Of a DNA stretch of 21,016 nucleotides, positions 1,360 through 19,048 are shown one piece after another. Under the pieces are notes generated by a model that was given only the letters and a program-made list of their open reading frames with translations, did no database searches and was not told the origin of the DNA. Source of the stretch: a virus; IMG/VR virus record IMGVR_UViG_3300006072_000061, positions 1 through 21,016 of that record; one strand, written 5' to 3'. How positions within the stretch are numbered: the first letter of the stretch is position 1; the number at the start of each line of letters is the position of its first letter. A program made the position numbers and the translations under genes.

Positions 1360-1754
1360 TGGAGACCAAAACTTGCACATCCTGTGAGCAGGATTTACCC
1401 ATCTCCAAGTTTAAAATGCGTGGTGGACGTCAAGTAGGCACAAGACAAGCCATGTGTAATCGTTGTTTATACGTTAAATACACACGACCACTTGTAGAAC
1501 AAAAAACTAAAGAAATTCATGAATATCAGGTAAAAAAAGGATGTGCAGATTGTGGATACAACGCTCATCCTGCAGCCTTAGAATTTGATCATCTTGTTGG
1601 TTTTGAAAAGAAATTCAATATAGGTGAACAAGTAGGTAATTACAGTCGTGAAAAACTGTGGGAAGAAATAGCAAAGTGTGAAGTGGTATGCGCCAATTGC
1701 CACGCCATACGAACGGCAAACCGTCGTAATCGAGTAGAGATTGAGGTGATCTGA
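1359..1754 (+). CDS. HNH endonuclease with N-terminal zinc finger
   Basis: A 131-aa HNH nuclease, a family that nicks or cuts DNA using a metal held by a beta-beta-alpha fold. Two Cys pairs (C6/C9 and C33/C36) form a small N-terminal zinc finger. The HNH part follows: C62/C65, the EFDH motif with D77 and H78, then C111/C114 with H115. Such stand-alone HNH genes in phages are usually mobile (homing) endonucleases. The gene is visibly richer in A and T than its neighbours and has A-rich codons, consistent with recent arrival. It is joined to both neighbours by overlaps (TAATG at 1357-1361, TGATG at 1752-1756). It has the same architecture as the HNH gene at 13733-14200, so the two are paralogues or share a source. 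Confidence 0.9.
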   Translation: METKTCTSCEQDLPISKFKMRGGRQVGTRQAMCNRCLYVKYTRPLVEQKTKEIHEYQVKKGCADCGYNAHPAALEFDHLVGFEKKFNIGEQVGNYSREKLWEEIAKCEVVCANCHAIRTANRRNRVEIEVI

Positions 1755-2288
1755 TGGCTGGAGGCTATAACAACTTCTCGCCACAGCAGAACTGGCAGTC
1801 CCTTGGTGCTGGCGGTATGTACGGTTACAACAATCAAACTGGCGCAGGAACTCCCGTTGCACGGGACAGTTTGGATCAGTCACGCATTGGCGTGGGCCGT
1901 ATTCCATCTGCGGAATATCCCTGACGGCTACCTCGGAACGATACGATCCCGTCGAGATGATCGTCTTCTTGATTCAATCAAGAATCGTGTTAATCAGAAA
2001 TCATACCAACGCGGTGTTCACAAAGGTGAGCGCATTGAGCCATCTATGTATTTTTGGCCTGACTCTGTCAACATGGATAGCGGTCTTAAGCGCCAAATGA
2101 AAGCCAAACTTGTTGACATCGATGGCGGTATGGTATTTCGTGTTCCAAGGGCTGCACCACAAACCCAGTTGGCTCCTGCTCCACACCTTGTTAACGATGG
2201 TAAAGCCAACACAATGGCAGATGCACCAACTGAGATCAATGCACGCCGTCAAGCGATGATGGCTTACTTGAGACCTGCGTGGGCATAA
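1754..2288 (+). CDS. hypothetical phage protein read through a +1 frameshift (joined product about 177 aa)
   Basis: Frame one runs from the ATG at 1754 to TGA at 1922-1924 (56 aa, Gly/Asn/Gln-rich). The second frame carries on with no plausible start codon until an ATG at 2046, well inside it. Skipping one base at the CCC codon (1919-1921) joins the frames as E-Y-P-D-G-Y and gives a continuous hydrophilic protein of about 177 aa. The second part is basic and Arg/Lys-rich up to about residue 80 of the fused product, and Pro/Ala-rich later. I infer one gene expressed by programmed +1 frameshifting, or a gene with an assembly error of one extra C. The 56-aa product alone could also be made. Function is unknown; a virion component is plausible because frameshifting is common in such genes. 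Confidence 0.7.
1916..1925 (+). promoter_or_regulatory. candidate +1 ribosomal frameshift site (TAT CCC TGA C)
   Basis: CCC followed by TGA lets the proline tRNA move one base forward onto CCT, and TGA followed by C is a weak termination context. CCC-TGA is the type of site described for +1 frameshifting in the structural genes of Listeria phage PSA; prfB uses CTT-TGA-C. Only a weak Shine-Dalgarno-like GCGGA lies upstream. A sequencing or assembly indel is the main alternative. Confidence 0.6.
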
Positions 2289-5764: not shown

Positions 5765-6256
5765 GTGAACATACTACTATCACTAGACGGGGTATTAAGT
5801 TCTGACACAGGAGAACCAATCAGAGCAGGAGTAGCAATCTACTACGCTCTTAATAACGGTAACCGTGTCTCTCTCCTTACCTCACGCACTAAAGCCGATG
5901 CAGAGCAATGGCTATTTAGTCATGGAATTATTGGCTATGACGATCTTATCTGTGACGATGTGCACCTAGAGGGCGATGATCTTAAGCGCCGTCAATTTAA
6001 GTTACTACGTAGCCAAGCACCTGTAGAGTTCTATGTAGACTCAGACCCAGCCATGTGTGCATGGGTATTTGAACAACAGCGTGTTGCCACTCTTCTATTC
6101 TCACATCCGTCATACGCTAAGATCGAAAACCGCCCCGATGCTCCTAAGCCATATCGAACGTGGGCAGAGATTGAAGAAGCAGTCAACCGAGCCAACATTG
6201 CTCGCTCTGTAGACCGCTTACGCCCAGATACCAAGATTGGCGAGTACTCTGACTAA
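5765..6256 (+). CDS. HAD-superfamily-like protein lacking the usual nucleophile, 163 aa
   Basis: The layout follows the HAD phosphatase fold: motif I at residues 6-11 (SLDGVL), motif II LLTSRT (about 37-42), a Lys in RRQFKLL (about 75-81) and a motif IV-like YVDSDP (about 89-94). In active HAD enzymes motif I is DxDG; here the first Asp, the nucleophile, is Ser6, while D8 is kept. A phosphatase reaction through an aspartyl-phosphate is therefore unlikely, and a binding or regulatory role, or altered chemistry, is more probable. It uses a GTG start with AAAAGGA upstream, three bases after the preceding stop. The next gene starts inside its 3' end (20-base overlap). Confidence 0.75.
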   Translation: MNILLSLDGVLSSDTGEPIRAGVAIYYALNNGNRVSLLTSRTKADAEQWLFSHGIIGYDDLICDDVHLEGDDLKRRQFKLLRSQAPVEFYVDSDPAMCAWVFEQQRVATLLFSHPSYAKIENRPDAPKPYRTWAEIEEAVNRANIARSVDRLRPDTKIGEYSD

Positions 6257-7757
6257 GATCATATTTTCAGGAGCCGAGGTAGGCTCTAACCGCACGCTCT
6301 TAGAAGGTATGAAAGTTGAGTCGATGGGACTCAACTTCTGGGGTCTCCGTAAGCGTGGGTTGCCAAAGACTAAGATTTGGCTGATTAGTGAACACTTTAC
6401 CCCAGAGACTCAGGTCATCATTGAGTCAGGGGCAGCACAAGCGGACAAGGCTGGGCTATCACGACAGGAACTGCTTTCCCTAGCCGCTGAGTACCAAGAG
6501 TTCCTCGTCAACAACGCAGATCGCGCCTTAGCCTTCCACGAGTTTGACTCCCAAGTACTAGGTAAAGAGTGGATAGAAGCGCAGCGCCCCTTCTTTGAGA
6601 ACGACCCAAAGTTATGGGTAGTCTGGCATGAGTCCTACGGCATAAGTAACTTGCGAGAACTGGCGGGCCGCTATCCCAACATACTTATACCCAACGCCGC
6701 GATAGAGGCTGTCACCAATCTATCGGGAGTGACTCGTGGTCTTGCACGCCAGACAGGAACCACCTTTCACGCCCTCGGATGTGCCAAGCCAGACAACCTA
6801 AGGCAGATACCATTTGGCTCAGCGAGCACATTGTCATGGCTATCACCGATGCGCAGAGGCGAGACGATCGTCTGGGATGGCAAGCAGATCAAGCGATACC
6901 CCAAGCGCATGAAAGACCAAGCACGCATCCGTTATAAGACGGTTGTCGAGCGTGCTGGGCTAGACTATTCTGAGTTTGTTAAAGATAGTACCCTCGAATC
7001 GACTAGAGTTGCAGTCTGGTCATACCTACAGATGGAGTCCGCTATGGAGAAGAAACCGCCTAACTTCCACATCATTGATGGGGGTAAAAAGGACATAGTA
7101 TCTGATAACAGCGATGACCTGTATACGGGGCTAATGATGGAATTAGGGGGTGACCCTTCTGATAACAGTGGTGCAGAAGGGAGGAAAGTGGAGCGTGCAG
7201 AAGTCGTAGAACGCGCCCCAGAAGAGATGCAAAATCTCCCAGTGTTTGGCTTCAAGACTAAGACAATCGTAGAGAGAGGCGATGACGGCAAGGATGTCCT
7301 TAAGGATGTTCCTGTCGTTCACACGCAACAGGCAAGCCTTCGTCAGTGCGATACCTGCTTCGTTGCAAGCAACTGCCCAGCCTTCAAGCCACAGAATCAG
7401 TGCGCATTTAACCTGCCTGTTGAGGTAAAAACCAAAGATCAACTCAAGGCGTTACTCACTGCAATTATTGAAATGCAGGGGCAAAGAGTGGCTTTTATGC
7501 GTTTTGCAGAGGAAATGAACGGTGGTTACGCAGATCCAAATCTCTCGCAAGAGATCGATCGCTTGCTCAAGTTAGTGGGCAATGTCAACGAGATGGATCA
7601 GAATAAAGAGTTCATCCAAATCACGGCAAGCCGTCAATCTTCGGGTGGTGTACTCTCTGCAATCTTCGGAGATCGCGCCCAAGCACTGAAAGAGTTGCCA
7701 GAGACACTCAAGGAAGAGTCAGTCACTAAGATCATTCAGCAATCTATTGAAGATTAG
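6237..7757 (+). CDS. large protein with TGT/DpdA-like TIM-barrel front and Cys-cluster tail, 506 aa
   Basis: Residues 1-260 have the pattern of the tRNA-guanine transglycosylase-like TIM barrel found in phage DpdA-type proteins: ESGA (63-66, where DSG is usual), EFD (102-104), a WH pair (130-131), YPNILIP (146-152), FHALG (178-182) and SASTLSW (195-201). Residues 280-365 look disordered. The tail has a Cys cluster C371-x2-C374-x5-C380-x8-C389 and a helical domain (about 400-500). I know this architecture from other actinophage proteins of undefined function. TGT-like enzymes swap guanine for a deazapurine in tRNA or DNA, but no deazapurine synthesis genes are in the window. The start is TTG at 6237; no ATG or GTG exists nearby. 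Family assignment is from motif memory, moderately sure. Confidence 0.8.
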   Translation: MASTLTKIIFSGAEVGSNRTLLEGMKVESMGLNFWGLRKRGLPKTKIWLISEHFTPETQVIIESGAAQADKAGLSRQELLSLAAEYQEFLVNNADRALAFHEFDSQVLGKEWIEAQRPFFENDPKLWVVWHESYGISNLRELAGRYPNILIPNAAIEAVTNLSGVTRGLARQTGTTFHALGCAKPDNLRQIPFGSASTLSWLSPMRRGETIVWDGKQIKRYPKRMKDQARIRYKTVVERAGLDYSEFVKDSTLESTRVAVWSYLQMESAMEKKPPNFHIIDGGKKDIVSDNSDDLYTGLMMELGGDPSDNSGAEGRKVERAEVVERAPEEMQNLPVFGFKTKTIVERGDDGKDVLKDVPVVHTQQASLRQCDTCFVASNCPAFKPQNQCAFNLPVEVKTKDQLKALLTAIIEMQGQRVAFMRFAEEMNGGYADPNLSQEIDRLLKLVGNVNEMDQNKEFIQITASRQSSGGVLSAIFGDRAQALKELPETLKEESVTKIIQQSIED

Positions 7758-7929: not shown

Positions 7930-9978
7930 ATGTCATTATTTTCATTCAAGTTGGCTGACGACTTTGTTGCTCCGTACAAGGCAAAGAAGGCTCCATTTGG
8001 ATACCAAGATGCAGCAGGAAACTCGGTAGGAGAGATCACATTCTTACGCACCTATTCCCGTAAAAAGGCAGATGGTACGAAAGAGACATGGGTCGATGTT
8101 TGCGAGCGAGTCATCAACGGCATGTACTCACTCCAGAAAGACCACGCCAAGAGCCAGCGTCTTCCATGGTCTGATGCCAAGGCTGCATCCTCTGCCAAGG
8201 AAGCATTCGACCGCCTGTGGAACCTCAAGTGGACACCACCAGGACGTGGCTTGTGGGTCATGGGTACACCGCTCGTCAACGAGCAACGCAACTCAGCAGC
8301 ACTACAGAATTGTGCCTTCGTATCAACAGGTTCAATGACCAAGACAGACCCAGCAAAGCCATTCGCATTTCTCATGGAAGCATCAATGCTCGGTGTGGGC
8401 GTTGGGTTCGATGACAAAGGAGCAGACAAGGAGTTCAAGATCTATGCGCCAGAAGAAGACAGTACCGCTTATGTCATCCCAGACACACGAGAGGGATGGG
8501 TCGAATCAACCGCTGCCCTCCTCAATAGTTACCTTAAGCCAGATACGAAGAAGCCTGTCTTTGATTACTCGGTCATCCGACCAGCAGGAGAACCCATCAA
8601 GATCTTTGGTGGAACCGCAGCAGGTCCAGACCCACTAATCAGACTTCATACATTGATCATCAAGATGTTTGCGGGCCGTGCTGGTGAGTTACTTACTCGC
8701 CGTGACATCGCTGACATCGGAAACATGATTGGTGTCTGTGTTGTCTCTGGAAACGTTCGTCGTTCAGCAGAACTATTGATGGGTCGTCTTGATGACAAGG
8801 ACTTCCTTAATCTTAAAAACTATGAAGTCTATCCAGAGCGTAACTTCTATGACCCAACAGGTAAAGATTCTGGTTGGGGATGGATGTCCAACAACAGCGT
8901 CGAAGTATCTGTTGGTCAGGATTTAACTCCAGCCATTGAGGGTATCGCCCGTAATGGTGAGCCTGGAGTTATCTGGATGGATGTATCTCGCAAATATGGT
9001 CGTCTAGCAGATCCAGAGAACAACAAGGACTGGCGTATCTCTGGCTACAACCCATGTGCTGAGCAGTCTCTTGAGTCATACGAGTGCTGTACTTTGGTTG
9101 AGACCTACTTGAACCGCCATACAGACATCGAGGATTACAAGCGCACACTTAAGTTTGCGTACCTCTATGCAAAGACTGTAACTCTTCTTCCAACACACTG
9201 GCAAGAAACGAACGCCATCATGCAGCGCAATCGCCGTATCGGTACATCGATGTCTGGTGTTGCTAACTTCGCTGACAACAATGGTTGGTCAGAACTTCGT
9301 ACATGGATGGATGAAGGTTACAAAGTAATCCAGAGTTACGATAAGACCTACTCTGAATGGCTAGGTATTCGTGAGTCAATCAAGACCACAACTATCAAGC
9401 CATCAGGAACAGTCTCAATCCTTGCTGGTGAAAGCCCAGGAGTTCACTGGACTGTTGGTGGTCAATACTTCTACCGCACCATTCGTTTTGCTAACTCTGA
9501 TCCAATGTTGCCTCTCTTTAAATTGGCTAACTACCGAGTAGAGCCTGCTGCATCAGACCCAACATCAACATCTGTCGTCTACTTCCCAATCAAGAGCAAT
9601 GCTCGTCGTAGCGAACAGGATGTATCGATCTACGAGAAAATGGCACTTGCTGCAACCGCCCAAAGATATTGGTCAGATAATTCTGTTTCAGTAACAGTCT
9701 CATTTGATCCAAATACAGAGGCTTCGGCTATTGGTACGGCTTTGCATATGTACGATGGACAACTAAAGACTGTCTCATTCCTGCCTATGGACAATGGCTC
9801 ATACGAGCAGATGCCTTACACCCAGATCACTGAGGAAGAGTATGAGAATGAAGGAACGATGAAGTTGTTCCCTATCGATCTTGCTGGTGTCTATGCTGGT
9901 ATGGCTGCTGATGCTATTGGTGAGGCTTACTGCACTACCGATGCCTGTGAAGTGAAGTTGATCAAAGACAATCAGTAA
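7930..9978 (+). CDS. nrdJ: adenosylcobalamin-dependent ribonucleoside-triphosphate reductase (class II, monomeric type)
   Basis: Reduces ribonucleotides to deoxyribonucleotides in the cytoplasm, using adenosylcobalamin to create the thiyl radical; it would supply dNTPs for phage replication. The sequence matches the Lactobacillus leichmannii RTPR type. C128 (QNCAF) and C387 are the reducible pair; C376 and E378 in NPCAE are the radical Cys and the catalytic Glu (C376 to C387 has the same spacing as C408 to C419 in RTPR). The C-terminal C668-x4-C673 pair transfers electrons from thioredoxin or a similar reductant. PSGTVS (491-496) is the phosphate-binding turn. Its 682 aa are somewhat shorter than RTPR (739 aa). 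All catalytic residues are present, so the gene looks functional. It stands alone behind a long leader and is closed by a terminator. Confidence 0.97.
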   Translation: MSLFSFKLADDFVAPYKAKKAPFGYQDAAGNSVGEITFLRTYSRKKADGTKETWVDVCERVINGMYSLQKDHAKSQRLPWSDAKAASSAKEAFDRLWNLKWTPPGRGLWVMGTPLVNEQRNSAALQNCAFVSTGSMTKTDPAKPFAFLMEASMLGVGVGFDDKGADKEFKIYAPEEDSTAYVIPDTREGWVESTAALLNSYLKPDTKKPVFDYSVIRPAGEPIKIFGGTAAGPDPLIRLHTLIIKMFAGRAGELLTRRDIADIGNMIGVCVVSGNVRRSAELLMGRLDDKDFLNLKNYEVYPERNFYDPTGKDSGWGWMSNNSVEVSVGQDLTPAIEGIARNGEPGVIWMDVSRKYGRLADPENNKDWRISGYNPCAEQSLESYECCTLVETYLNRHTDIEDYKRTLKFAYLYAKTVTLLPTHWQETNAIMQRNRRIGTSMSGVANFADNNGWSELRTWMDEGYKVIQSYDKTYSEWLGIRESIKTTTIKPSGTVSILAGESPGVHWTVGGQYFYRTIRFANSDPMLPLFKLANYRVEPAASDPTSTSVVYFPIKSNARRSEQDVSIYEKMALAATAQRYWSDNSVSVTVSFDPNTEASAIGTALHMYDGQLKTVSFLPMDNGSYEQMPYTQITEEEYENEGTMKLFPIDLAGVYAGMAADAIGEAYCTTDACEVKLIKDNQ

Positions 9979-10664: not shown

Positions 10665-11264
10665 TTACTTCTGCTTAGGCTTTGTCTTTCGTACTGCTTT
10701 GGTCTGATGACCTACAGTCTTAACAGCCACCTTTGCTTTATGTGCCTGAATGTGTGCCTTGTATGGATACATGGCTAACCAGTCTTGTACGACCTTCTGC
10801 CTTGTGCCCTTCCATGCACTCCAATTTCTGCCAGCATTGCTCATTTGATAAGCAATCTGTGCATTGGTCACAGGATTTAGCAGTTGAGCGTTGTACGCTA
10901 AACCGTAATAGGCTCGTCGATCTGCGCCCATCGAGCCAAGCATATTGATCTGGAATAAGCCATACGAGTTGTCTCCAGTATGGACATTTCCGTTGTAATC
11001 AAGCGCATTTCCATGTGATTCTTTCATGGCTACCGCCCATGCATACTTCAAGGATTGACCTGTAAAGCCTACGGCTTGAAGCATCGTGACAAGTTCCGTT
11101 GGTTGAAACTTGGCATAGTTCTGATACTTCTTTAGCACGAGCATTTGGGCTTCTGCCTTACTAGGGGCTACGGCTGGGGCTGATAGCCCGATCATGGCTC
11201 CTAGTACTACTGCTGATGCTGAGATTGACCCCAGTATCACTCTTACTTTTGATATTGCTTTCAT
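10665..11264 (-). CDS. secreted lysozyme-like / transglycosylase (SLT) protein, 199 aa
   Basis: Predicted to cleave the glycan strands of peptidoglycan outside the membrane. Residues 1-39 form a signal peptide: basic start (KAISKVR), hydrophobic core, and possible cleavage after AVA33 or AEA39. The lysozyme-like domain follows (about 45-165) with catalytic Glu82 in MKESHG, SYGLFQIN (100-107) and NWSAW (147-151). The tail (170-199) is very basic and probably binds cell wall or DNA. The start at 11264 has GGAG ten bases upstream; the longer frame to 11288 would run into the integrase gene and spoil the signal peptide. It lies directly behind integrase on the same strand. It may act in lysis, in host-wall remodelling during lysogeny, or on the virion. 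Confidence 0.85.
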   Translation of the reverse strand: MKAISKVRVILGSISASAVVLGAMIGLSAPAVAPSKAEAQMLVLKKYQNYAKFQPTELVTMLQAVGFTGQSLKYAWAVAMKESHGNALDYNGNVHTGDNSYGLFQINMLGSMGADRRAYYGLAYNAQLLNPVTNAQIAYQMSNAGRNWSAWKGTRQKVVQDWLAMYPYKAHIQAHKAKVAVKTVGHQTKAVRKTKPKQK

Positions 11265-11271
11265 AGTTTCA

Positions 11272-12549
11272 TCACTCCATAAAGTCATTGGCGAGTTCTC
11301 CTGCCGTTGACTGCTGGTGACGGAGTCGGTGTAAATACCTTTCCGTCGTTTTAATTGACTGGTGACCTAATCGCTCTTTGACCTCGTGCACATCTACCCC
11401 ATTTTTTAGTAACTGGGTAGCGTTAGCGTGCCGAAGGTCGTGAGTTCTAGGAGTCCAGCCAATTCCTGACTTGGCTATTGCTTGGTTCCATGTAGTTCTC
11501 CATACTCCACGCGGTAAGTGGCTCGTCTCGTCGGTCATGGTCTGACTAATCCTAGCCTTGCCCTTAGCCTTCCGATACTCTCGTTTCGTCTGGCTACAGG
11601 CTTGGCATCGGCAACCCCCATGTGTATAGGAGTAGAGCGTTCCATGCTTGAAGCGTTTTCCCTCTGTTGCATAGGGCTCCAGAGTGTCGATCTCGCGTGA
11701 AGGTTCTAGTTTACCTGCCGTTAATACTATCGATCGAGGGAAGAGCAGGTCATCTTTCCGCAGCGAGTTAGCCGAGACATAGGCAGCAATCTCTTGTAAG
11801 AGGGCTTTTGAGAGGGTTACGGAGCGTTTCTTGCCCGATTTAGTAGCATCTATGACCTTGAATCGCTCGCCAGCGTTGTATTGCGCCCCTAGATCACTGA
11901 CTCGTCTCTGGATAAATACTTCGCCAGAGTTAAAATTGAAATCCTTTACCCTGAGTTCTGTAGCCTCACCGAATCTCGCCCCAGAGAGCACGAGCATCTT
12001 GGCAAGTAACTTCGCACCGGAACCGGTTCCGTCAGGCAAGTTACTTAGTATCTTCTTAAACTCGGCAGGCTCAAGGACATTCTGCAGGTCTGGCTGGCTG
12101 ACTTTGATCTTGATGCCATGCGTGGGGTTGCTGGTGATCGCCTCACTCTCGACCAGCGAGGCGAAGGCTGAGCCCAGACACGCCTTGACCTGACCCAGCG
12201 TGGCTGGCTTGACCCCCTCAAGTCTGAGGTCACTAAGTAACTTTCGAATCTGGCGGGCAGAGATGGAAGTTACTTCATTTGCGCCTAAACGATCTCGAAC
12301 ATATGTACGAAAGGTCATGGTGTAGTTCTTCTTAGTGATCGGCATAAGGTCAGCCGTCTGAATCCATTTGTCGAAGTACTCGGACAGGCTAGAACCAGCC
12401 TCAGAAGGCTCTGTAAAGCCCAGAACCTCAGCCCTCAGACCCGAAGCCTCAGCCTGAGCATAGGAATCCCATGTGCCAGCAGAGAGGCGTTTGCCGTCTA
12501 CTCGGTAATATGCGGTAAAGCGTTTACCGCGTTGTACTACATAAGCCAT
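11272..12549 (-). CDS. int: tyrosine integrase with Cys-rich insertion, 425 aa
   Basis: Site-specific recombinase that joins phage and host attachment sites. Catalytic residues are all present: R192 (SGARFGE), K237, H370/R373/H374 (HDLRH), H396 (LGHQS) and Y405 (nucleophile). The N-terminal arm-binding domain (1-60) and a SAM-like core-binding domain (60-150) precede the catalytic domain. Between K237 and H370 there is an extra segment with HGT near residue 302 and C313/C315/C318 (GCRCQAC), a probable zinc-binding loop. I start at ATG 12549, six bases after GGGAGG; the GTG at 12555 touches that site. Upstream lie operator-like repeats, and an excisionase gene is further up the same operon. 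Confidence 0.95.
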   Translation of the reverse strand: MAYVVQRGKRFTAYYRVDGKRLSAGTWDSYAQAEASGLRAEVLGFTEPSEAGSSLSEYFDKWIQTADLMPITKKNYTMTFRTYVRDRLGANEVTSISARQIRKLLSDLRLEGVKPATLGQVKACLGSAFASLVESEAITSNPTHGIKIKVSQPDLQNVLEPAEFKKILSNLPDGTGSGAKLLAKMLVLSGARFGEATELRVKDFNFNSGEVFIQRRVSDLGAQYNAGERFKVIDATKSGKKRSVTLSKALLQEIAAYVSANSLRKDDLLFPRSIVLTAGKLEPSREIDTLEPYATEGKRFKHGTLYSYTHGGCRCQACSQTKREYRKAKGKARISQTMTDETSHLPRGVWRTTWNQAIAKSGIGWTPRTHDLRHANATQLLKNGVDVHEVKERLGHQSIKTTERYLHRLRHQQSTAGELANDFME

Positions 12550-12569
12550 AGCCACCCTCCCTCAGAGTG

Positions 12570-13580: not shown

Positions 13581-13733
13581 TTACTCCTTACCTTTGCAGT
13601 TAAAACATATCCACATAACATTCTCTTGATTGTGTTCGATAAACTTCCCAGAAGTAATTAGCCCCTGCTGACCGCATTGATCGCAGGTATCTAATTGATC
13701 TGGTGTTACTCTGATTAGTTCTACATAACCCAT
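13581..13733 (-). CDS. small zinc-ribbon protein, 50 aa
   Basis: A 50-aa protein with C17-D-Q-C20 and C43-F-N-C46, a clean zinc-ribbon spacing. The ATG at 13733 overlaps the TAA stop of the HNH gene (TAATG). The front (residues 1-14) is beta-like. It ends with KGKE just before the next ribosome-binding site. Probably a nucleic-acid or protein-binding ribbon; no specific family recognised. Before insertion of the HNH gene it was probably the direct neighbour of whiB (see findings). Confidence 0.75.
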   Translation of the reverse strand: MGYVELIRVTPDQLDTCDQCGQQGLITSGKFIEHNQENVMWICFNCKGKE

Positions 13734-14213
13734 TACGCCACCTTTCCTGTCTTTACATACTTGTGTAAGTAATCTTTATTTTTCTTGCTGGTTCTGATCT
13801 TGTGGCAGTAAGCGCATCGCACTACGCATTTGCCGATTTCTTTCTGCAATTTGATCAATGGAATACCCTCTTGAATGCCGAGAGAGATATCGAATGACTT
13901 GCGCCCTCTAACATGGTCGAAGTCCAACCCTCTGATGTCTGCGTTGCCACAGTCCACGCATGGGTTCTCGGATTTGTACTCAGCAACATAGGCTTGAAGT
14001 ACTGCACGCCTCTTTGCCTTTGCATACTTAGTCTGCTTGATCATCACCTTGTGATTGTCGGTGTAGTGATCGTAACTAGATTTCTTCTGGCACGACCTGC
14101 ACTGAGTCTGCAATTTATCAGGTCGTGCACTATTGCGATTGTAAAGATGTCGAGCCTTGTAGCGATTGCACTTGAAGCATCGCTTGGTCGTTGCTTTCAT
14201 TACGCCACCTTTC
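13731..14213. repeat. 16-base direct repeats bracketing the second HNH gene
   Basis: GAAAGGTGGCGTAATG (minus strand) occurs exactly at both junctions of the HNH gene: 14198-14213 (whiB end/HNH start) and 13731-13746 (HNH end/zinc-ribbon start). The repeat unit is 467 bases, the length of the HNH gene with one repeat copy. Each copy encodes K-V-A, the stop codon and the next ATG. Confidence 0.9.
13733..14200 (-). CDS. HNH endonuclease with N-terminal zinc finger, 155 aa
   Basis: Second HNH nuclease. N-terminal zinc finger with C8/C11 and C34/C37, Lys-rich middle, then HNH: C81/C84 (CVDCG), LDFDH with D95 and H96, C125, C129/C132 and H133 (CAYCH). Same architecture as the gene at 1359-1754, so a DNA-cutting homing nuclease is the best call. 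Unlike that gene, its base composition resembles its neighbours. It sits as a neat cassette between whiB and a zinc-ribbon gene, flanked by 16-base identical sequences, joined to both by TAATG overlaps. This looks like insertion with duplication of the junction. Confidence 0.92.
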   Translation of the reverse strand: MKATTKRCFKCNRYKARHLYNRNSARPDKLQTQCRSCQKKSSYDHYTDNHKVMIKQTKYAKAKRRAVLQAYVAEYKSENPCVDCGNADIRGLDFDHVRGRKSFDISLGIQEGIPLIKLQKEIGKCVVRCAYCHKIRTSKKNKDYLHKYVKTGKVA

Positions 14214-14457
14214 GTCTATTGCGTGATACATAGAGTGGAGAGTTGTAACTCTTTCCGTAGTACATCTTTCCTCCCCATATTCCATATATCTGTGTTTGAC
14301 TCTCTGCATATTCGGCGCACTGATTAAGTAGTGGACATCTCTTGCAGACTTTAACTGCTTGTTGAATGTCTCTTCGAATCTCGAAGTTATTATCAGGAAA
14401 GAATATCTCTGGGTCAATTTGAGCGCAGAGTTGTGTGCCGTCATATGGTGGTTGCAA
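14200..14457 (-). CDS. whiB: WhiB-family iron-sulfur transcription regulator, 85 aa
   Basis: WhiB proteins carry a [4Fe-4S] cluster on four Cys and act with the host primary sigma factor. Here C11, C38, C41 and C47 are all in place, and the GIWGG turn is at residues 59-63, followed by a basic C-terminus (SRNRRKVA) for DNA contact. In actinophages, WhiB-like proteins can repress host whiB genes or contribute to superinfection exclusion (known for mycobacteriophage TM4 WhiB). It starts with TTG, seven bases after a perfect AGGAGG. This is the strongest host marker in the window: the family is restricted to Actinobacteria and their phages. Confidence 0.95.
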   Translation of the reverse strand: MQPPYDGTQLCAQIDPEIFFPDNNFEIRRDIQQAVKVCKRCPLLNQCAEYAESQTQIYGIWGGKMYYGKSYNSPLYVSRNRRKVA

Positions 14458-16227: not shown

Positions 16228-18165
16228 TTACGCGTTAGTTAATCTGCGAGAGATCGCGTACTTAACGATCGCTCTTGCCATTGTGATGAGATCAAGAGGG
16301 TTAGCAACTACTGCACCGATCTCACAGTTGTGAGCCTTCTCAGCAGTAAGCACTACCTCTTCATGCTTCTCTGGAATATATGCGAAGGCAGTCAATACTT
16401 TTGACTGACCCATGCGCTTGATTGCATCTTCGTTTGCATCTTGATTGCCGTACCACTCGCCGTCAGTGATGATGAAGAAGATTTTGATCTTGCGATCACT
16501 CTCAGCAAGCAACTTTGTTGCATACTTGATCGCTTGATCTGGCTCTGTGCCACCGCCACTGAATGCATCTCGAATCTGAGAATTAGATTTCTCACTAGCG
16601 CGATACAGGACATGAGTTTCATCGCAGAATGTCAGCACTGTTGTGCTGGCATCGATACGATCAAGTGCTCGCTTGATTGCGTACATTGCACGATTAGCGT
16701 TAGCGATCTTGCTCCCTGTCATTGAGCCAGAGTTGTCGATAGCGATCACGCATTCGATGTCGGTAGCATCTTCACGACCCTCATTCCATTGATCGAAAAT
16801 CGTGTCAAAATCATCGCCACGCATATAGCGACCAACACTCAAGCGACCAGCGTTCTCGTATCTATCCCATGCAGGTTCGAATGAGGCGCGAAGGCGTTCG
16901 AGTTCACGACCGAATGATCGTGATGCTTCAACCGTCACTGAGTCGGGCATGATCTCGCTATAGCGAGCACGCTCTGGCTCTTGTGAGTTGTTTGATGTGA
17001 GAGTTGGCTGACCACTGATCACTCGAAGAATGTCATTGATCTCCTGAGCCACACCAGACTCGCTAAGAATCTGATCGAGCACTGTAGAGATCATCTCACC
17101 AGCACTAGCCCCAGCATCGAGTGACGGCTCTGGCTTGCTTTGATCTGAATCTGAATCTGTATCCCCTGAATCTGAATCTGAATCTGAATCGGGAGTTACT
17201 TCATCGCTCTGATCATCGAAGTCAGACCAATCGATGTCCTCTGCCTTGATCTCTGGGAGATCGTCATCGAGATCATCTGGCTTGTTATTGAGACGATCGC
17301 GCTCCTTCTCCTGCTGGCGTGGTGGCACTGGGCGAGAGTCGACTGATGACTCGATGCCCTGCTGAGGGCGAGCACCATGACCGCATGGGTCGATGACTTT
17401 GACTGGTGTGCCTTCGCCTTCACCATTGACTGCCTTGTACTTTGGTGTACCAGTCTCATCACCATTGCCACCCTCACTCTTTGGTAGCAGGTTGTAGTAC
17501 TGCTCAATGAGTTGTAATCCGCGCTCTGTATCTGTTGGGAATACGAGAGTGCGATACTCATTGATAATCGCCTTAAACTCATCGATCTTATCTTGATGAG
17601 GATAGAGAGCACGCGACTGCTGGCGAATCTCGACAGGTAGATACCTGCGACCGCATAGCAATGGATAAGAGTTCTCGAACACCTCTGGGTTGTTCTTGAA
17701 GTGAATCAAGATCATCGAAGTGAACCACGCGACTGTTGAAGGGTACTTAGCAGTGAAGAATGACTCGATGCGCTGATCTTCTAACGCATTGAATGCAGTC
17801 CACCACTTGTTAGCAATTACTTGCTCAACGAGATCGCTACCTTCTCGGCTGGTGTACAAGATGTGACTGACCTCGTGAAGATCAAGCCCCTTGATGCTTG
17901 CGATCGACTCAGGTGTATCAAGTTCACCGATCTCATTAGCATTGAAGTAGACATCACTAGCCCCAGACCATGCTGGGGCTTTGATTGATGCGCTCTCAAC
18001 CTTGACTGTCACTGGTCGGAATGTGAAGGCAGAGTTCACACGAGAGAAGAAGCCAGTGAAGCGTTCGATACGCTGGCGTTTAGCCTCTTGTGCCTTCTGA
18101 TCTTCTGTTAACTCTTTGAGTGCATCGAAGATTTCTCCGAGATCAGTTACATTGATCTTGTCCAT
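16228..18165 (-). CDS. VWA-domain protein of CobT type with HExxH motif, 645 aa
   Basis: Likely the partner of the AAA+ ATPase encoded just upstream. The N-terminal domain has L-H97-E98-V-S-H101, a zincin-type HExxH, followed at 127-134 by ALEDQRIE, an arrangement known from VWA proteins that work with MoxR/CobS-type ATPases. A long acidic linker (about 295-345) ends in a Ser-Asp repeat. The C-terminal VWA domain has a complete MIDAS: D477-x-S479-x-S481, T540 and D568 (IITDGE). CobT joins CobS and CobN in cobalt insertion, but related VWA/AAA+ pairs also remodel other proteins. Clear ribosome-binding site AAGGAG six bases from ATG. Whether HExxH acts as a protease or only as a structural metal site is open. 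Confidence 0.9.
   Translation of the reverse strand: MDKINVTDLGEIFDALKELTEDQKAQEAKRQRIERFTGFFSRVNSAFTFRPVTVKVESASIKAPAWSGASDVYFNANEIGELDTPESIASIKGLDLHEVSHILYTSREGSDLVEQVIANKWWTAFNALEDQRIESFFTAKYPSTVAWFTSMILIHFKNNPEVFENSYPLLCGRRYLPVEIRQQSRALYPHQDKIDEFKAIINEYRTLVFPTDTERGLQLIEQYYNLLPKSEGGNGDETGTPKYKAVNGEGEGTPVKVIDPCGHGARPQQGIESSVDSRPVPPRQQEKERDRLNNKPDDLDDDLPEIKAEDIDWSDFDDQSDEVTPDSDSDSDSGDTDSDSDQSKPEPSLDAGASAGEMISTVLDQILSESGVAQEINDILRVISGQPTLTSNNSQEPERARYSEIMPDSVTVEASRSFGRELERLRASFEPAWDRYENAGRLSVGRYMRGDDFDTIFDQWNEGREDATDIECVIAIDNSGSMTGSKIANANRAMYAIKRALDRIDASTTVLTFCDETHVLYRASEKSNSQIRDAFSGGGTEPDQAIKYATKLLAESDRKIKIFFIITDGEWYGNQDANEDAIKRMGQSKVLTAFAYIPEKHEEVVLTAEKAHNCEIGAVVANPLDLITMARAIVKYAISRRLTNA
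17140..17187 (-). repeat. Ser-Asp repeat in the linker of the VWA protein
   Basis: On the plus strand the six-base unit GAATCT is repeated in tandem, encoding alternating Asp and Ser (residues about 327-342 of the protein). It forms an acidic flexible linker and could expand or contract by slippage. Confidence 0.85.
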
Positions 18166-18175
18166 GTGTTACTCC

Positions 18176-19048
18176 TTAGACTGTTGCGTACTGAGTTGTT
18201 ACTGCATCTTGATCGATGCCTAGATCATCTTTGATATTGAATGATGCGCCCTCAAGAAGCATCTTGACTGCTGGGCGTTCTTCATCAGAGAAGTTGTTAG
18301 CGAACACTTCGCACGCTAGATCGAAGTTCAATTCTTTCGCTACTAATTCGAAAGTCTTGAGAATGCGTGGAGTGATTGGTGTTTCGAAGATCGTTGACTT
18401 GCTCGCCTGACCGAGATCAACGCCACGAGATTGAGAACGCATACCGAATGCGAGATCAAGAAGAGACTCTGACTTGATGATCTTGCTCTCGATAGCGCGA
18501 TCGTATTCGTAACGCATCTTGAGTTGGAAGCGATCAGCCCACGACTCAGAGAGAGGTTGTCGACCTCGGTACATTGGATTCCAGTCAGCGATCACGATGA
18601 GATCTGGGTGAGCATGAACCACTTCGTAATCTTTGGCAGTGAGCGTGAGAGTACGGCGATGATCAAGGGCTGGGTGGAAGAAGAATTGAGCATTCTTTGC
18701 GAGTTGATCGATCTCACCAAGATTGAGAACACCACCATTGCGCCAGACTTCGACATAGACCGAGTCAACCCATTCGAGTTTGCCGTCACGCGATACCCAG
18801 TTGCCCTGCAACTCGTTAGCACTGAGTGCTGAGTTAGAAGGTAGATCGACATAAGGCAGACCGCGCTGGCTTGCGTAGTACTGAGCGAATGATGTCTTAC
18901 CAGTACCAGCATGACCAGCGTTGAGGATATTGATCTTGTGCTTGCGAGCGAAGTCTGCGATCTGTAGACCAGAGATACCGAACCAGTTGCGATCGATGTA
19001 GTGCTCTTGAGATTCAAGAGTTGGAATTAATTGATTGAGTGGATTCAC
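18176..19048 (-). CDS. AAA+ ATPase of MoxR/CobS type, 290 aa
   Basis: A ring-forming ATPase that probably remodels a target together with the VWA protein. Walker A is G45-H-A-G-T-G-K51-T52. The Walker B region reads L-N-L-G111-E112-I-D: the catalytic Glu is present but the usual preceding Asp is Gly. Sensor 1 is in IADWNP (N157), and R173 in WADRF is the candidate arginine finger. The gene starts with GTG, six bases after AAGGAG, and its stop lies ten bases before the VWA gene. The pair resembles CobS/CobT found in some phages next to cobalamin-linked genes. Specific substrate unknown. Confidence 0.9.
   Translation of the reverse strand: MNPLNQLIPTLESQEHYIDRNWFGISGLQIADFARKHKINILNAGHAGTGKTSFAQYYASQRGLPYVDLPSNSALSANELQGNWVSRDGKLEWVDSVYVEVWRNGGVLNLGEIDQLAKNAQFFFHPALDHRRTLTLTAKDYEVVHAHPDLIVIADWNPMYRGRQPLSESWADRFQLKMRYEYDRAIESKIIKSESLLDLAFGMRSQSRGVDLGQASKSTIFETPITPRILKTFELVAKELNFDLACEVFANNFSDEERPAVKMLLEGASFNIKDDLGIDQDAVTTQYATV

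Follow-up and report, generated by a model that had tools for sequence, protein, structure and literature searches.

In bacteriophage T4, the HNH endonuclease gene mobA and the 50-nucleotide (nt) bypassed insert of gene 60 form a cassette, and the insert reportedly may protect against the nuclease (PMC5009743; PMC3014915; PMC8300805, citing Bonocora et al. 2011 PNAS). In prfB, 3 nt separate a Shine-Dalgarno (SD)-like sequence from the shift codon, and the stop codon stands in a UGA-C context (PMC12421855); CCC is reported to be among the next most slippery codons in a prfB-type context (PMC10885494), and +1 shifts at CCC_UGA are known in Listeria phages (PMC5009743). In this study, we analyzed 21,016 nt of viral DNA (IMG/VR record IMGVR_UViG_3300006072_000061, positions 1 to 21,016; hereafter the window), in which a conserved gene, the target gene, carries one extra T and lies directly downstream of an HNH endonuclease gene. 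Our analysis suggested that the locus holds a programmed +1 frameshift which likely belongs to an HNH homing cassette resembling T4 mobA/gene 60.

The 56-codon frame of the target gene ends GAA TAT CCC TGA C, and a +1 shift at CCC-T joins it, at 1919-1925, to a frame of 121 codons. The fused product would comprise 177 amino acids, ending at 2288, with the predicted junction peptide ..IPSAEYPDGYLGTIR. The extra T lies 168 nt past the target-gene start codon, in the most conserved stretch of the protein, AEYP/DGYLG (the slash marks the join). The 3' part of the gene has 507 relatives in IMG/VR. Among 215 distinct sequences, at least 190 (about 88%; 185 plus 5 variants or truncated ones) read the ..AEYP/DGYLG.. 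stretch in an uninterrupted frame, and 25 (26 other contigs and the window, plus a 27th that is N-masked) are frameshifted by one T added at the same point. As the frameshifted set was collected by its own pattern and the uninterrupted count is a lower bound, the true share of frameshifted alleles is probably lower. The closest cultured relatives, genes of BRock/GiJojo-type Streptomyces phages, are also in one frame. The earlier note had named homologues in one uninterrupted frame as the finding that would speak against recoding; most homologues are indeed of this kind, yet the frameshift is not refuted by them, since their abundance marks the frameshift site as an acquired insertion.

IMG/VR was scanned with a degenerate pattern (A-E-Y-P, a single free base, D-G-Y) that favored no synonymous codon; of the 34 stretches matched, 26 came from the target family besides the window, and the extra base was T in all 26. 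Control scans of IMG/VR at the same spot, with one base fewer or two bases more, found none. The observed join greatly exceeds chance expectation. The context GCG GAR TAY CCY T GAC was present in all 24 unambiguous distinct frameshift sequences, and codon usage in these was compared with that of 145 uninterrupted distinct sequences by Fisher tests. GCG was used by 24/24 frameshift and 29/145 uninterrupted sequences (p 9e-15), GAG by 20/24 and 52/145, CCC or CCT by 24/24 and 48/145 (p 9e-11), and GAC by 24/24 and 44/145 (p 2e-11). In the alignment of homologues, a check proposed in the earlier note, CCY-TGA-C is fixed in the frameshift sequences, and synonymous diversity of the frameshift alleles drops (0.0-0.38) only at the A-E-Y-P-D-G codons, elsewhere matching that of uninterrupted alleles. 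On the tree, 11 of 11 phylogenetically independent pairs on supported branches showed the full motif as expected (p about 0.001); this is a safer number than the 17 changes of the frameshift trait, which were counted on the fully resolved tree only. In addition, both halves of the frameshift alleles are under purifying selection. The motif occurs once per frameshift-phage genome, solely in the target gene.

The site would work in a manner that, from its sequence, is prfB-like, yet it differs from prfB in shift codon and gene. As in prfB, an SD-like element stands exactly 3 nt before the shift codon, the stop is UGA-C, and the codon 5' of UGA would slip +1 (PMC12421855); the match to prfB, for which the earlier note had cited the leaky UGA-C alone, therefore extends to the SD-like element and its spacing. 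For the 6-mer that stops 3 nt 5' of the proline codon, the anti-SD duplex energy was -5.07 kcal/mol in frameshift and -1.06 kcal/mol in uninterrupted sequences. Unlike prfB, however, the actinophage gene uses CCC/CCU in 24/24 sequences and not CUU (the CUU_U site is absent), does not encode a release factor, and belongs to phages of a host phylum whose prfB lacks the motif (0 of 2,658). The CCC_UGA +1 shift in a phage gene is shared with tsh of Listeria phages PSA, A118, and A500 (PMC5009743); in contrast, tsh is a structural gene yielding two virion products, whereas the uninterrupted actinophage relatives show that only the long product is needed, and an endonuclease gene accompanies the site. 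Downstream RNA structure was rejected as a stimulator, as the mean z was about -0.5 in frameshift and uninterrupted sets alike, and no transfer RNA (tRNA) genes were found near the frameshift sites in 19 loci. Taken together, the recurrence in 25 distinct sequences and the conserved synonymous motif make programmed +1 frameshifting at the CCC-TGA-C join very probable, in agreement with the recoding that the earlier note had proposed here.

Table 1. Features of the target locus, in window coordinates.
Feature	Coordinates	Strand	Remarks
HNH endonuclease gene, 131 amino acids	1359..1754	+	phrog_2255, 1.4e-31; sits between upstream gene and target gene
Approximate mobile/co-converted segment	1359..1980	+	HNH gene, 5' half, frameshift site and about 50-90 nt; from mosaic profiles and regional synonymous distances
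5' part of target gene	1754..1924	+	ATG-started zero-frame open reading frame, 56 amino acids, stop TGA; uninterrupted relatives fuse the same 5' half in frame
SD-like putative stimulator GCGGAA	1910..1915	+	3 nt 5' of shift codon; GCGGAG in 20/24 frameshift relatives
Spacer/E-site codon TAT, 3 nt	1916..1918	+	TAT in 21/24; spacing equals that of prfB (PMC12421855)
Predicted shift codon CCC	1919..1921	+	CCC 19/24, CCT 5/24 in frameshift relatives
Additional T, missing from uninterrupted alleles, presumably skipped in the +1 shift	1922..1922	+	T in 26/26 other contigs and the window
UGA-C, predicted slow termination context	1922..1925	+	GAC (1923-1925) is the next +1 codon; GAC 24/24 vs 44/145
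3' part of target gene	1923..2288	+	+1 frame, 121 amino acids; 507 IMG/VR relatives; purifying selection, omega about 0.03-0.23

The frameshift is strongly associated with the HNH gene. An HNH gene lies directly upstream in 16 of the 23 frameshift alleles with enough flank but in only 1 of 182 uninterrupted alleles (Fisher p 1.6e-17), and on independent pairs the two traits agreed in 7.3 and disagreed in 0.2 (median p 0.016). The gene is tightly fitted in, its start overlapping the upstream stop (TAATG) and its stop overlapping the target-gene ATG (TGATG). In the uninterrupted close relative L004 the site is empty and the upstream gene ends on the target-gene ATG; such precise empty sites are found in L004, L010, L034, and L071. 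The LEFDH..CANCH motif and the CxxC pairs of the HNH protein are intact, with LEFDH and C[AS]NCH in 18/18 copies, and searches of the protein against NCBIfam and Pfam gave no match. Among the 80 matches listed, all HNH relatives of at least 69% identity are at the target locus, and the next reach at most 46% over the full length. A loose motif scan for frameshift sites beside the more distant HNH relatives (L371-L438) returned ten candidates, none of them convincing. The window holds a second HNH endonuclease gene (13733-14200, -; phrog_2255), directly after a WhiB gene.

Mosaic replacement was seen in four genomes: only the segment given in Table 1 has been replaced, and the remaining backbone is colinear with that of an uninterrupted relative (L036/L034, L009/L010, L053/L071, and L103/L305). 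Upstream, L009 and L010 are 94-100% alike and L036 and L034 mostly 85-98%; the HNH insertion comes next, followed by a diverged stretch (64-93%) from the target-gene start to about 30-60 nt past the join, beyond which both pairs are mostly 87-100% alike again. L053/L071 and L103/L305 showed a similar mosaic with higher background divergence. Between frameshift alleles of different clades (L002 against L036 and against L053), the synonymous distance (pS) was 0.07 just past the join and 0.68 further downstream. For HNH-bearing pairs, pS was 0.44 in the 5' half, 0.41 in the 30 alignment columns that directly follow the join, and 0.65 in the remainder, compared with 0.60, 0.66, and 0.66 in uninterrupted pairs (p 1e-5 for the difference). 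At the level of sequence, such pS values and mosaics are what co-conversion that runs from the endonuclease gene through its target should leave.

Two further alleles appear to make decay and reversion of the cassette visible. L080 has kept the frameshift together with what appears to be a remnant of the 3' end of HNH, seen in translated frames and not by nucleotide search. L294 (IMGVR_UViG_3300022591_000004), the sole allele with HNH but without the frameshift, carries GCGGAGTATCCTGAAGG, the motif minus one base, and shows an Asp-to-Glu change at the join, a position at which 177 of 179 uninterrupted relatives have Asp.

From these comparisons we infer the following course of events. A free-standing HNH gene would have inserted directly upstream of the conserved actinophage target gene, and its endonuclease would nick or cut, within or close to the AEYP/DGYLG stretch, the uninterrupted allele carried by a co-infecting phage; repair from the donor would then copy HNH, the 5' half, the frameshift site, and a further few tens of bases. 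The added base and the fixed synonymous changes would hide the donor copy from the endonuclease, and it seems somewhat probable that the extra T indeed protects the donor from self-cleavage. During translation, the SD-like GGAG 3 nt upstream would pause the ribosome, and the Pro-tRNA would slip over the T from its CCC or CCU codon, termination at UGA-C being slow; translation would resume at GAC, the +1 shift restoring the full-length protein. We are rather confident that the locus represents a mobile cassette. We also favor, if only slightly, the description of the element as a one-nucleotide "recoded intron", that is, a single-base self-protecting insert, neutralized by a purpose-evolved SD-assisted +1 frameshift and repeatedly spread and lost across the phages of a phylum otherwise without such a prfB frameshift.

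Like T4 mobA/gene 60, the locus has an HNH gene upstream of a gene with a recoded insert that is missing from endonuclease-free relatives, and recoding would restore the product. Unlike gene 60, the actinophage insert measures 1 nt and not 50 and would be overcome not by bypassing but by a +1 frameshift aided by an SD-like element; the endonuclease gene does not interrupt the target gene, the phages and hosts are different, and many natural donor, recipient, and decayed alleles exist in the family. The arrangement also recalls the free-standing mob and seg endonucleases of T4, as the HNH gene lies between two genes with overlapping stop and start, occurs sporadically, and has a co-converted neighbor (PMC2988022). 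In contrast, self-protection of known free-standing endonucleases comes from sequence difference, and here it would come from a recoded indel.

Several observations weigh against the homing-cassette reading. Seven of the 23 frameshift alleles are now without HNH, and loss after arrival has to be assumed for them. Mosaics could also be produced by ordinary homologous recombination between phages. The distances of HNH and target genes correlate (r about 0.72), which makes the association in part an old, vertically inherited one; judged from these sequences, the association is old as well as mobile. Furthermore, the SD-like element of the window, GGAA, is weaker than the consensus GGAG, and shifting at the prfB motif reaches only 6.6% in M. 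smegmatis (PMC12421855), from which the efficiency in actinobacterial hosts may be low.

Among the alternatives, a purely regulatory frameshift deserves the most attention, though we consider it unlikely. It would determine how much full-length protein is made, or in what ratio the 56- and 177-amino-acid products appear, perhaps by sensing RF2 activity, with HNH as a passenger. All prfB-type elements are present and selected, and the seven frameshift alleles that retain the site without HNH would fit such a role; yet a passenger does not account for the linkage of 16/23 against 1/182, the frameshift trait turns over fast on the tree, and no release-factor gene (PF00472) was found in the 21 related contigs tested, which also led us to reject a phage release factor as partner. 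In addition, most distinct relatives sampled do without the short product. The purpose given in the earlier note, control over the proportion of two products after the manner of Listeria phage PSA, was not supported as the main reading on the same grounds, as about 88% of the distinct relatives sampled make the full-length protein only, so that the family can do without the short product, and the site goes with HNH. Linkage to HNH and scattered occurrence would fit if the T and the synonymous changes were a resistance scar, selected by the HNH enzyme alone and leaving a crippled gene without useful frameshifting. This explanation is very improbable, however, since strong purifying selection acts on the 3' half of the frameshift alleles (omega about 0.03-0.23), the bases that have become fixed make up a +1 site (an SD-like element with 3-nt spacing, UGA-C, and CCY), which cleavage resistance does not predict, and the motif persists in alleles without HNH.

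It is less probable still that the two frames are separate genes, the second with an independent or coupled start. The window does offer an upstream TTG, at 1803, in the downstream +1 frame, which reaches upstream of the join; the statement of the earlier note that this frame lacks a nearby start is therefore inexact for the window, but it applies to 5 of 25 frameshift relatives (L080, L110, L111, L106, and L102), which have no ATG, GTG, or TTG before the join. In most frameshift relatives a start codon is also absent within about 40 codons past the join, so independent initiation is not the general route, and the join codons continue the fused protein exactly. Finally, the idea that sequencing or assembly added a base to a run of C may be practically dismissed. 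One-base indels are in general a common error type, but 26 further contigs, drawn from many metagenomes, have the same T in the same synonymous context, some of them as CCT-T with no run of C, and other indel types number 0. The extra C that the earlier note had set against recoding is thereby refuted for the family, the insert being always T, also after CCT.

The viruses carrying the frameshift are most likely phages of Actinomycetota, as WhiB genes and the likeness of a ribonucleotide reductase suggest and as the earlier note had supposed. WhiB is an actinobacterial regulator and a marker of actinophages. It was found in 25 of 26 related contigs, and among 14 control genomes only C. glutamicum was positive. 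In the window, a WhiB-family regulator with a TTG start is encoded at 14200-14457 (-; PF02467, 2e-15), and an adenosylcobalamin-dependent ribonucleotide reductase (TIGR02505) at 7930-9978 (+), the closest bacterial relative found being that of Saccharopolyspora (67% identity). A search of genome contigs with the target family, made for a host link, found no relative. The prfB frameshift was reported in 0 of 2,658 prfB genes of Actinomycetota (PMC12421855).

Family searches of the target protein, structural families included, gave no match, and its structure model was mostly disordered and of low confidence (predicted local distance difference test, pLDDT, 58; predicted template modeling score, pTM, 0.24). 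Directly 3' of the frameshift gene lies a gene for a DUF7178 protein (2290-2925, +; PF23802). A DpdA/queuine tRNA-ribosyltransferase-like protein (phrog_887) is encoded from a TTG start at 6237-7757 (+), and a DpdA-like gene also lies near the homologous region of Streptomyces phage GiJojo; the protein might point to modified DNA, or it might affect the Tyr and Asp tRNAs at the frameshift site. Elsewhere in the window, a tyrosine recombinase/integrase gene (11272-12555, -) adjoins an SLT lysozyme-like gene (10665-11288), and at 16228-19048 (-) a VWA-domain CobT-like protein adjoins an AAA (CobS/MoxR-like) ATPase, a combination that many large phages have.

To our knowledge, the T4 gene 60 bypass with mobA is close to a singular phage case of recoding that serves a homing endonuclease, and a search of the open-licence literature, which was not exhaustive, found no description of a homing endonuclease linked to a programmed frameshift. 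If true, the actinophage element would be a second, independent, and minimal solution beside T4 gene 60/mobA. Since donor and recipient alleles exist in nature alongside decayed ones, which keep the frameshift but not HNH, and reverted ones, which keep HNH but not the frameshift, the origin and life cycle of recoding elements would be open to direct testing. A prfB-like +1 signal would be in use in phages of Actinomycetota, though prfB there never uses it and M. smegmatis is poor at the CUU version, and the CCC variant would thus be a test of what actinobacterial ribosomes accept. Furthermore, gene callers split such genes, and an odd frameshift beside an HNH gene may be a homing scar.
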